The position numbers and the translations under genes are program-made. From Cellulophaga sp. BC115SP (GTDB lineage: Bacteria > Bacteroidota > Bacteroidia > Cytophagales > Spirosomataceae): DNA of 35,449 nt. The notes beneath the pieces are model-generated. The model worked only from the letters and a program-made list of their open reading frames with translations, ran no database searches and had not been told where the DNA came from. The stretch is from contig NZ_JAAALB010000055.1 of assembly GCF_009905545.1 (NCBI RefSeq), positions 1-35,449 of the forward strand, written 5' to 3'. Positions 7,413 through 27,824 of the stretch are shown piece after piece (the first letter of the stretch is position 1; each line of letters begins with the position of its first letter).

Positions 7413-8618
7413 TTAAAACTCAGGAAATGGATCTTCAAACTTTTTCTTGGCTTCCATTTGTTTGATTTCCTCCACCGTACAAAGACAATCTTGTAGTTCC
7501 TTTATCAATAATTCTTTGTCTAAATCTTGCCCAATAATCACTAATTCATTGATACGGTCGCCAAATCGTTCATCCCAACGCTTCATGATTTCGTCTTTTG
7601 AGTCTTTCCAAGCAGGATAAAAAGAACGCTCCCACTTGGGTACGCCAGCCCACCATTTCCCTGCATAATCTGCACGAAGCGAACCACCCGCCTGTCCCCA
7701 ATTTAGGGCATCTTTAGGTCTTGAAGCTAACCAAAATAAGCCTTTAGAACGAATAATTCCTGCATGCCAATGTTGATTAATGTAATTCCAAAAACGTGTA
7801 GGATGGAATGGACGGACGTCTCTAAAGACAAAAGAGCTAATGCCATATTCCTCCGTTTCGGGCGTATGACTCCCCTTTTCTAATTCTTGAATCCAGCCTG
7901 CCGATTGCGAGGATTTTTCAAAATCAAACAAGCCTGTATTGAGAATATGGGAGGTTTCAATTTTTCCAAAAGTCGATTCTACAACTTTAGCATCAGGGTT
8001 CAATTTCTGAATAATGGTCTTTAACTCCGCAACTCTTTCGCGAGGAAGCAAATCTGTTTTGTTCAAAACAATGACATTGGCAAACTCTATTTGGTCTGTC
8101 AATAGGTTTACGATGGTGCGTTGGTCATTAGGATCTTCGTCATTGAGGCCGCGAGTCCAGACAGTATCAATAGAGCCAAAGTCTTTGGCAAAGTTAAAGC
8201 AGTCAACCACCGTCACCATCGTGTCTAGTTGGGCAAAACGAGAAAGGTCAATTCCGCTGTTTTCATCAACATACGAAAAAGTTTGAGCCACAGGTAAAGG
8301 CTCCGATATACCCGTGGACTCTATGAGCAAATAATCAAAACGCTGGTCTTTGGCAAGTTTTTCTACCTCCACCATCAAATCTTCACGAAGTGTACAGCAG
8401 ATACAACCATTGGACATTTCGACCAGCTTTTCTTCCGTTCTTGAAAGTACATTTTCTTGTTTGACCAACTGAGCATCTATATTGACTTCACTCATGTCGT
8501 TGACAATTACTGCTACTTTCAAGCCTTCTTTATTGTGTAAAATATGATTGAGCAAAGAGGTTTTTCCAGCACCCAAAAAGCCACTCAATACTGTTACCGG
8601 TAATTTTCTATTTGACAT
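7413..8618 (-). CDS. COG0523 (CobW/ZNG1-type) metallochaperone GTPase
   Basis: 401-residue G3E-family P-loop GTPase. It shows Walker A GFLGAGKT (13-20), the family's CxCC metal-binding motif GCICC (C72, C74, C75), the Walker B/switch region [12 protein letters not shown] and the base-recognition motif NKTD (186-189). The C-terminal half has a CobW_C domain beginning near residue 258 ([16 protein letters not shown]). COG0523 proteins deliver Zn, Co or Ni to client enzymes, and many Zur-controlled members act under zinc starvation. The gene start overlaps the end of the MerC-domain gene by 25 bp, so they are co-transcribed, and the operon starts at a promoter with Zur-like boxes. A zinc role is therefore a strong inference. 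Confidence 0.93.
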
Positions 8619-8983
8619 TTTTTACAAAATTTTATGTTAAAATAATGTGTTGTAATCAACCCCAAAGAGGCAATCCACCCCAAATACTGCGCAAACCAAA
8701 CTTGGTCTTCATAGAGTAAAGCCCAAACAAAAACGAGATACGCCACCCAAAGTCCTATGCGGATGCCTTTGGGCGTATGTTTATGTGAACTCGTCCAAAC
8801 GGCTATCAAGCCCAAGCCTATAAATAAATAATCCCAAGTAGGATGATGCGCAAACCCCAAGCTCTCCAACTGAATCTCCCATTTAAACAATAGCATAATC
8901 GGCATCAGCATACAATGTATGAGGCATATCCCCGAACTAACTATGCCTACATAATCAAAAGTGTTTTTTCTCAAATTTTCCAT
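8594..8983 (-). CDS. MerC-domain integral membrane protein
   Basis: 129-residue protein with about four membrane helices. The first helix has C20, H23 and C24 ([11 protein letters not shown]), the MerC-type metal site position, and a second Cys pair FCKKC (C120, C123) lies near the C-terminus. MerC proteins were described as mercury importers, but in Bacteroidota short MerC-domain proteins often occur with COG0523 GTPases and Zur sites, suggesting zinc transport. I start at the ATG at 8983: the 11 preceding residues would be encoded by the operator itself. The promoter -7 box at 9000-9007 implies a nearly leaderless mRNA. The 3' end overlaps the GTPase gene by 25 bp. Transport direction and ion are not shown by sequence. 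Confidence 0.82.
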
Positions 8984-8986
8984 AAA

Positions 8987-9001
8987 TGCAACATTGTTGC
9001 A
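8987..9001. promoter_or_regulatory. Zur-like operator box 1
   Basis: TGCAACATTGTTGCA: perfect 7-1-7 palindrome. It overlaps the minus-strand -7 element by two bases and ends three bases before the MerC-gene ATG, so a bound repressor would block initiation. Attribution to a Zur-type Fur protein is inference from the controlled genes. Confidence 0.75.
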
Positions 9002-9031
9002 AATATAGAATATCAAAATTCATTTTTGCAA
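9000..9031 (-). promoter_or_regulatory. Promoter of the MerC-COG0523 operon
   Basis: On the minus strand: TTG (9031-9029), 21 bases, TATATTTG (9007-9000), matching the Bacteroidota primary sigma consensus. The -33 TTG lies in box 2 and the -7 overlaps box 1. Confidence 0.7.
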
Positions 9032-9041
9032 CATTATTGCG
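9027..9041. promoter_or_regulatory. Zur-like operator box 2, central
   Basis: TGCAACATTATTGCG: same left half as box 1, two mismatches in the right half. It starts exactly 40 bp after box 1. It contains the -33 TTG of both divergent promoters, and its centre (9034) is the mirror point of the whole region. Confidence 0.7.
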
Positions 9042-9068
9042 AATATTTAAAATATGTTTTTATATTTG
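9037..9068 (+). promoter_or_regulatory. Promoter of the Zur-box-associated lipoprotein gene
   Basis: On the plus strand: TTG (9037-9039), 21 bases, TATATTTG (9061-9068). It has identical geometry and the same -7 sequence as the divergent promoter. The -7 overlaps box 3. It implies a 5' leader of about 110 nt before the ATG at 9186. Confidence 0.7.
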
Positions 9069-9081
9069 CAACATCATTGCA
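9067..9081. promoter_or_regulatory. Zur-like operator box 3
   Basis: TGCAACATCATTGCA: left half identical to boxes 1 and 2, two mismatches in the right half. Starts exactly 40 bp after box 2 and covers the plus-strand -7/start region. Confidence 0.7.
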
Positions 9082-9185: not shown

Positions 9186-9740
9186 ATGAAAAACTTACGT
9201 AAACCCCTCACAATTTTGGCTTTAGCCATTGCTGTCATTACCGTTAGTAGTTGTAAAAAAGACGCTCCTGACCCTGTACAGGATAGCGAAAACCTTACGA
9301 CGTTAAAGCTCAACTTTACATCGGGAGGTGTCACCAAAACATTTGCATTTAAAGATATTGATGGTATCGGCGGTAATGCTCCTGTAGTAGATAACATCAG
9401 CTTAGATGCCAACAAAACTTACAGTGTAACGGTACAGGTATTGGACGAAAGTAAAAGTCCAGCAGAGGATATTACATCAGAAATAGAAACCGAAAGCTTT
9501 GAGCACCTGTTCGTGTACACGCCAACGCCAAGCAATTTGTTGACCATTACTCGTACCGATAAAGACAATAGAAATCTGGAAGTGGGCTTAAAAGCTTCGG
9601 CTGTGACTACCAATGCAGGCACAGGAACATTGAGAGTCGTATTGTATCACCAACCACCACAAAACGGTGTGCCAATCAAAGATGGTACAGCTAAAGGAAG
9701 TACAGACTTTGACGCACAATTCAATGTAACAATCAAATAA
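9186..9740 (+). CDS. Surface or periplasmic lipoprotein of a Zur-box-linked Bacteroidota family
   Basis: 184-residue lipoprotein: signal MKNLRKPLTILALAIAVITV then lipobox VSSC with Cys23, followed by KKDAPDP. The mature part is strand-rich, with TLKLNFTSGGVTKTFAFKDIDG, SLDANKTYSVTVQVLDESKSPAEDIT, a charged EIETESFEHLFVYT and, near the end, VVLYHQPP. I recognise this pattern from small Bacteroidota lipoproteins encoded next to TonB-dependent receptors of metal-starvation loci, often loosely annotated as type 1 periplasmic binding fold. No receptor gene is present here. It is transcribed divergently from the MerC-COG0523 operon through the shared three-box region. I chose the ATG at 9186, which gives a proper signal peptide. 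Molecular function is unknown; a metal-scavenging role is inference. Confidence 0.75.
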   Translation: MKNLRKPLTILALAIAVITVSSCKKDAPDPVQDSENLTTLKLNFTSGGVTKTFAFKDIDGIGGNAPVVDNISLDANKTYSVTVQVLDESKSPAEDITSEIETESFEHLFVYTPTPSNLLTITRTDKDNRNLEVGLKASAVTTNAGTGTLRVVLYHQPPQNGVPIKDGTAKGSTDFDAQFNVTIK

Positions 9741-27389: not shown

Positions 27390-27824
27390 ATGAATGCGAG
27401 CGCAATTAAAAGTACCTTGAAGGCCTATAGCCTTCGCCAAACAGAATGTCGCGAAGAGATTCTAGATATATTCTTAACAAAAGCCTACGCATTGGCTCAT
27501 GCTGATGTGGAAACTCAAATGTCTGAAAAGTTTGATCGTGTAACGGTTTATCGTACACTCAAAACATTTCTAGACAAAGGACTTATCCATAAAGTACTCG
27601 ACGATGAGGGGGGGATCAAATATGCCCTTTGCAAAGACAATTGTCATGCCGACGACCACAAGCATCATCATGATCATGTGCATTTTAAATGCACTAAGTG
27701 TGGGCTTACCACTTGTCTCGACCACGTAACGATTCCGCAAGTTGCCTTGCCCGAAGGTTATCAACGTGTCGAAACCAATTTGTTGGTACAAGGCGTTTGT
27801 AAAACTTGTAATCAGATACTTTAG
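27390..27824 (+). CDS. Fur-family transcriptional regulator, Zur-like
   Basis: 144-residue metal-dependent repressor. The N-terminal winged helix has YSLRQTECREEILDIF and the recognition region FDRVTVYRTLKTFLDKGLIHKV. The C-terminal dimer domain has the structural zinc Cys4 site, C101-x2-C104 and C137-x2-C140. Between the two, residues 81-98 are very rich in Cys and His (CKDNCHADDHKHHHDHVH), more than usual for Fur, suiting a zinc sensor. Starting 4 bp after the ABC exporter, it is in that operon. It is the obvious candidate to bind the TGCAACA boxes at 8987-9081, though I see no such box at its own operon. Zur versus another Fur type is inference. Confidence 0.88.
   Translation: MNASAIKSTLKAYSLRQTECREEILDIFLTKAYALAHADVETQMSEKFDRVTVYRTLKTFLDKGLIHKVLDDEGGIKYALCKDNCHADDHKHHHDHVHFKCTKCGLTTCLDHVTIPQVALPEGYQRVETNLLVQGVCKTCNQIL

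Follow-up and report, generated by a model that had tools for sequence, protein, structure and literature searches.

A predicted Zur operator array merged with a pair of divergent promoters in Cellulophaga sp. BC115SP

Three 15-bp boxes in 40-bp steps lie between a lipoprotein gene and the merC-COG0523 genes of Cellulophaga sp. BC115SP, on a stretch of 35,449 nucleotides (contig NZ_JAAALB010000055.1) that is referred to here, as a whole, as the window. They very probably form an operator array for Zur that is fused with a divergent pair of promoters, and through which a Zur-like protein, together with zinc, would shut both gene sets. The boxes, the promoter-like elements, their conservation, the gene linkage and the co-occurrence with a Zur-like protein are read from the sequence itself. 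The box is a 7-1-7 palindrome, TGCAACA-N-TGTTGCA, with the consensus pattern TGCAAYANTRTTGCA. Allowing up to one mismatch, this pattern has exactly three matches in the window, the three boxes themselves, against a mean of 0.06 in 100 shuffled windows, none of which held three.

Table 1. Features of the window and further boxes in the same genome (the latter as contig:position)
Feature	Position	Strand	Remarks
COG0523 GTPase	7413..8618	-	PF02492 and PF07683; most similar to ZigA, a zinc metallochaperone; overlaps the end of merC
MerC-family membrane protein	8594..8983	-	PF03203, 60.3 bits (cut-off 27.6); start codon 3 bases past box 1
Box 1, TGCAACATTGTTGCA	8987..9001	.	shares two bases with the -7 element of the MerC promoter; covers the presumed MerC start point
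Predicted merC-COG0523 promoter	9000..9031	-	TTG (9031-9029) N21 TATATTTG (9007-9000)
Box 2, TGCAACATTATTGCG	9027..9041	.	carries both -33 TTGs; off-consensus end TTGCG
Predicted lipoprotein promoter	9037..9068	+	TTG (9037-9039) N21 TATATTTG (9061-9068)
Box 3, TGCAACATCATTGCA	9067..9081	.	shares two bases with the -7 element of the lipoprotein promoter
Lipoprotein gene	9186..9740	+	recurrent partner in the candidate regulon; predicted model mostly beta strands
Fur-superfamily regulator, Zur-like	27390..27824	+	proposed repressor; PF01475, 37.2 bits (cut-off 23.1)
Own-genome box	C111:36989		exact box; a fur gene lies 235 bases away; upstream of a pyridine-nucleotide-disulphide oxidoreductase gene
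Own-genome box	C111:13508		upstream of a TonB-dependent receptor gene
Own-genome box	C125:2404		upstream of a TonB-dependent receptor gene
Own-genome box pair	C126:33659 and 33632		upstream of a second MerC, PF03203, 69.7 bits
Own-genome box	C143:42784-42798 (L029:6785)		upstream of a small protein with no Pfam match

A TTG upstream of the -7 element is part of the Bacteroidota sigma-A promoter. The -7 element itself reads TAnnTTTG (given in passages of PMC9723704). By sequence, both predicted promoters match this form, and the same holds in the six arrays described below. The -33 TTGs and the -7 elements of the two promoters are each centred on position 9034, which is at once the centre of box 2 and the mirror axis of both promoters. 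An earlier note on this DNA had claimed three boxes 40 bp apart, two mirror-image TTG-N21-TATATTTG promoters around 9034, both TTGs inside box 2 and a two-base overlap of boxes 1 and 3 with one -7 element each; the coordinates agree with all of this, and the perfect palindrome claimed for box 1 is borne out, its central base aside. The symmetry arises because a palindrome with such ends supplies promoter elements on both strands: the ends, TTGCAA, double as the TTG of the -33 and the TTTG of the -7 element. Taken alone, the pattern TTG-N21-TAnnTTTG matches the window three times against 1.01 expected, and three or more matches were obtained in 7 of 100 shuffles. By itself, therefore, the promoter pattern is not rare in this AT-rich window, and the promoter reading draws its weight from the fit to the boxes and from conservation rather than from rarity.

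The array, its promoters and the flanking lipoprotein, MerC and COG0523 genes are kept in six genomes, namely all five sampled from the genus (G000-G004) and one of another genus (G008). A direct search of 222 family genomes found three-box arrays in these six only. The steps measure 40 and 40 bp in four genomes and 40 and 41 bp in two. The earlier note had held that absence of the boxes from related genomes would speak against them; the six-genome alignment shows no variation in 39 of 45 box columns and in 10 of the 12 remaining -7 columns, compared with 8 of 39 spacer columns and 10 of 61 flanking columns. All six arrays retain the inward TATATTTG of the MerC promoter, the TAnnTTTG of the lipoprotein promoter (with a spacer of N21 or N22) and the off-consensus end of box 2. 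In the three more distant array genomes, identity falls to 35-45% for MerC and 49-74% for the lipoprotein, and the array is still present. Judging from this alignment, the array is a real, conserved regulatory element. The divergent lipoprotein-MerC arrangement is more widespread than the 40-bp array, since five further genomes (G011, G019, G021, G029 and G032; loci L079/L246, L080/L260, L083/L255, L084/L247 and L086/L256) show boxes 22-23 bp apart. In G011 and G019 they form a simple pair; G021 and G029 have a lone box in addition to the pair, and G032 has three consecutive boxes. This is a different geometry, which is not explained by the promoter rule set out below.

The box also recurs upstream of related genes elsewhere. 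The exact palindrome occurs in 38 of 59 relatives (95 sites, against 2 for a reversed control). A box with up to two mismatches lies within 350 bp upstream of 24 of 30 MerC homologues (all 30 protein-similarity matches, 29 of them placeable by blast) and 23 of 30 lipoprotein homologues (taken from 53 matches); equal-size control stretches farther along each locus gave 0/29 and 1/30, respectively. No box was placed at six MerC and seven lipoprotein loci, and five of the latter (G006, G014, G016, G018 and G027) adjoin zur and merC. The genome of BC115SP itself contains TGCAAYANTRTTGCA nine times when up to one mismatch is allowed, and the reversed control twice; the same scan of the window placed no box at the zur gene (27390-27824). 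The pair before the second MerC has a spacing of 27 and contains TTG-N19-TAATTTTG. The C143 box is the centre of a 27-bp palindrome, TATATTTGCAACAATATTGCAAATATA, flanked on both sides by a TATATTTG -7 element. At C111:36275-37003 (L025), the second Fur paralogue adjoins the disulphide-oxidoreductase gene, with the exact box in between. A separate case of gene association is found at G035:C12:46452-47555, where a box has as neighbours a lipoprotein homologue and a distant paralogue of Zur (27% identity); this suggests that the genome carries a duplicated zinc module.

Box pairs were collected by DNA pattern alone from one genome per species, giving at least 118 pairs with spacings of 21-51; L185, an exact copy of the L182 stretch, was left out and L220 gave two pairs, such that 118 pairs correspond to 117 loci. 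Neighbouring ORFs were labelled by phmmer with proteins of the BC115SP genome. Beside the 118 pairs listed, the labels comprise MerC (24), Zur (17), lipoprotein (14), COG0523 (11), TonB receptor (11), oxidoreductase (3), the C143 protein (2) and the second Fur (0), and a further 107 ORFs, some surely not genes, carry no label. Comparison of ten unlabelled ORFs with Pfam gave no match for five, identified two as ABC transporter ATPases, and revealed one each of a TonB-receptor plug, a DUF4625 protein and a ZIP transporter (Nitrotoga). A further ORF scanned in Methylophilus is a ZIP transporter. A 400-aa lipoprotein-like ORF beside the pair of L163 (4313-5512) has no Pfam match and resembles the zinc chaperone AztD in NCBIfam (1.2e-28; 99.9 bits, under the cut-off of 400); ORFs of similar size in L164, L180, L189 and L221 may be its relatives. 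Thus, the earlier note's expectation of boxes near other zinc genes is matched by boxes beside zur, COG0523, TonB-receptor, AztD-like and ZIP genes. Among the matches listed, 80 pair loci carry an organism name; 13 lie outside Bacteroidota (Nitrotoga, Silvimonas, Herbaspirillum, Janthinobacterium, Undibacterium, Methylophilus and single outliers), and the remainder are Bacteroidota and one Balneolaceae. Betaproteobacterial pairs are seen in L117, L171 and L177 (Nitrotoga) and in L173 (Methylophilus); those of L171 and L173 lie upstream of ZIP zinc transporter genes at spacings of 38-39 bp, without TAnnTTTG. A widespread three-box array was considered and rejected: among the 118 pairs listed, a third box 20-60 bp away (up to two mismatches) was found at 3 loci, one with steps of 41 and 41 (L148, Prevotella) and two with steps of 21-22.

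The regulator proposed to bind these boxes is the Zur-like protein of the window. It combines a FUR domain with a winged-helix fold, and its model (pLDDT 87.8) matches structures of Fur, PerR and Zur, which score alike in the comparison. The best solved structure by sequence is M. tuberculosis Zur/FurB (2o03; E 2.4e-6). Two CxxC pairs for structural zinc, C101/C104 and C137/C140, are invariant in 17 aligned proteins. Ahead of the HxH motif, Cys81 (in YALC) aligns with YRRC of 2o03, at the position of the Zur regulatory-site Cys. Of 15 aligned Zur-like proteins, 10 have this Cys, and both other Fur proteins of the genome show a gap there. The curated Zur model PRK11639 is the best NCBIfam model for the protein, at 30.4 bits against a cut-off of 167, and the Fur and PerR models are likewise not passed. 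What supports the assignment to zinc is therefore the gene content, Cys81 and the ZigA-like COG0523 neighbour (NF038288, 566.6 bits, under the cut-off of 600, with the next model at 175.1), not a family model.

Box presence tracks this Fur-type protein and not the other Furs. The protein is present in 50 of 59 relatives, and the exact box occurs in 38 of these 50 and in none of the nine without it (p 2e-5, a rough value, as is the one below, the loci sharing ancestry). Within the order but outside the family, the box is found in 9 of 13 genomes with the Zur-like protein and 0 of 9 without; in a sample of the class, the counts are 32/61 and 12/88 (p 5e-7, equally rough), 12 of the 44 box-bearing genomes having no Zur match and 29 of the 61 Zur-bearing ones no exact box. 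Among nine class genomes picked by eye, the box lies 16-69 bases upstream of the zur match in seven and just past the other end of zur in two. Sequence evidence thus supports the zinc and Zur reading of the earlier note and its proposal of joint control of both gene sets, through box conservation, boxes before the expected genes in relatives, tracking with the Zur-like protein and boxes beside zur.

The spacing of the boxes points to promoter geometry. Among the 118 pairs listed, 79 have a start-to-start spacing of 36-40, with a mode of 38 (34 pairs; p 7e-35 against a uniform distribution, common ancestry biasing the spacings). If the upstream box supplies the -33 TTG from its 3' end, boxes spaced d apart yield TTG-N(d-19)-TAnnTTTG, such that 38 gives N19 and 40 gives N21. 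Of these 79 pairs, 57 have a TAnnTTTG that enters the downstream box from inside and 4 one that enters from outside, a test that rests on four free bases, the box supplying the others; 22 of the 79 have no TAnnTTTG. A second class with spacings of 27-30 (16 pairs among those listed) carries TAnnTTTG in nine, with a T before box A in eight of the nine, and here the TTG comes from the other end of the upstream box, giving N19-N22. Both classes obey one promoter rule. The classes at 21-24, 31-34 and 42-50 (18 pairs among those listed, two with a -7 element) are not explained by it. Among the organism-named pairs listed at 36-40, TAnnTTTG is present in 36 of 48 from Bacteroidota (including one Balneolaceae) and in 0 of 7 others, which fits a phylum-specific promoter. 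The spacing is thus set mainly by the distance from -33 to -7, which fits better than helical phase. The earlier note had read 40 bp as four helical turns; at 10.5 bp per turn, steps of 40 and 38 bp correspond to 3.8 and 3.6 turns, and the most frequent spacing elsewhere is 38, in a peak that spans 36-40, so this reading is not supported. Helical phase is disfavoured by spacings that centre on 38 and by classes that fit promoter spacers, with the non-Bacteroidota pairs as the counterpoint.

Those pairs bear on the most serious alternative, in which Zur dimers bound to the three boxes would meet one another or form a loop, and selection for protein contact would have set the spacing. The seven non-Bacteroidota pairs among those listed keep 36-40 without TAnnTTTG, and therefore another promoter geometry or protein contact must be at work there; this raised the weight of a cooperative array, which is also favoured by the near-constant steps of the six arrays and by the fact that in other bacteria more than one Zur dimer can bind (passages of PMC6103462). 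Set against this are the spread over 36-40 around 38 and the additional 27-30 class among the pairs listed, both of which, where TAnnTTTG is present, fit a spacer of about N16-N22, as well as the 3.8 turns of a 40-bp step. Cooperativity as the origin of the spacing is accordingly unlikely, though the strongest of the rivals. At one of the two promoters, Zur could also activate or have a mixed role, since activation by Zur is known elsewhere (passages of PMC6103462); here, however, a predicted core promoter element lies under every box, as suits repression, and such a role is very improbable.

A different protein might bind the boxes altogether, either the C163 protein, an ordinary Fur, or the second Fur, encoded on C111, with iron or peroxide as the signal. 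The C111 fur gene is indeed close to a box (235 bases), and the box-preceded TonB receptor of C125 scores best as a haem type (206.4 bits against 122.7 for ZnuD, both under the NCBIfam cut-offs). The distribution across genomes nevertheless disfavours the Fur paralogues as box binders: close orthologues of the C111 Fur (at least 92%) are confined to G000, G001 and G003, whereas 38 of 59 relatives have boxes, and 55 of the 59 have a Fur like those of C163 and C111, among them six of the nine genomes that lack both the box and the Zur-like protein. Moreover, C111-Fur labels are lacking beside the 118 pairs listed, compared with 17 for Zur, neither Fur has a Cys at the Cys81 position, and several target genes are of zinc type. 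Control by another Fur is therefore improbable, if slightly less so than activation.

The preferred reading, repression by the Zur-like protein, would work as follows. The box ends, TTGCA(A) on both strands, would serve as the -33 TTG or the -7 TTTG, with box 2 supplying the TTG to both promoters and boxes 1 and 3 each abutting one -7 element. When zinc is plentiful, the Zur-like protein would bind boxes 1-3 and hide the bases that sigma reads, covering both TTGs, both -7 ends and both start regions, and merC-COG0523 and the lipoprotein gene would be shut together; under zinc shortage, both sets would be released and transcribed. We infer binding, the zinc response, repression and the start points in this scheme. 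The shared centre may also make two polymerases compete, because usual footprints would leave hardly any room for both at once. Of the products, MerC would act as an inner-membrane metal carrier, the COG0523 protein as a cytoplasmic zinc chaperone and the lipoprotein as an envelope zinc handler. In 16 aligned MerC proteins, CxxHC and N116 are invariant and H113 nearly so. The lipoprotein has no Pfam or NCBIfam match, and its model has no Foldseek match at E <=0.001, so its structure yields no function. More tentatively, and with somewhat more doubt than confidence on our part, the region may be a single-point divergent switch, in which one Zur dimer on box 2 would silence both operons, the polymerases would exclude each other and the off-consensus end of box 2 would tune the order of release as zinc falls; more generally, across Bacteroidota, Zur operator and promoter would share bases, with operator spacing equal to promoter spacing.

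Several known systems offer parallels. The B. subtilis gene yciC is a COG0523 gene. At yciC and at S. coelicolor znuA, two Zur boxes sit on both promoter elements, one on the -35 and one on the -10, as in the present array (passages of PMC6103462, which also describe Zur box geometries such as the 7-1-7 palindrome in promoters). The box sequence and promoter class differ there, whereas here the box ends are themselves promoter elements and the unit becomes divergent through its third box. The E. coli Zur box of znuABC shares the regulator superfamily, zinc and the possibility of more than one dimer per promoter (passages of PMC6103462); it is one long site for two dimers, in contrast to the separate 15-bp palindromes 40 bp apart. 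As in the Zur regulons of Haas et al. 2009 (PMC2770081), a COG0523 gene lies under a predicted Zur site; the sites in that paper's main text are from Bacilli, proteobacteria and cyanobacteria, and the words "Bacteroid" and "Flavobacter" are absent from it. Passages of a Riemerella ZntR paper treat Zur in general terms (PMC11960050). Among the freely available papers listed by the literature searches, no description of a Bacteroidota Zur box or regulon was found.

The kind of control described here is known, while the shared-base variant and the spacing rule appear new, and the three-box form looks like a rare version of a Zur operator fused with a promoter. The finding would make the Zur box of a large phylum, the Bacteroidota, readable and give it a candidate zinc regulon, together with a simple rule, testable through mutations, that ties operator spacing to promoter geometry. 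It also suggests work in zinc supply for proteins labelled MerC after mercury and for a lipoprotein family of no assigned function.
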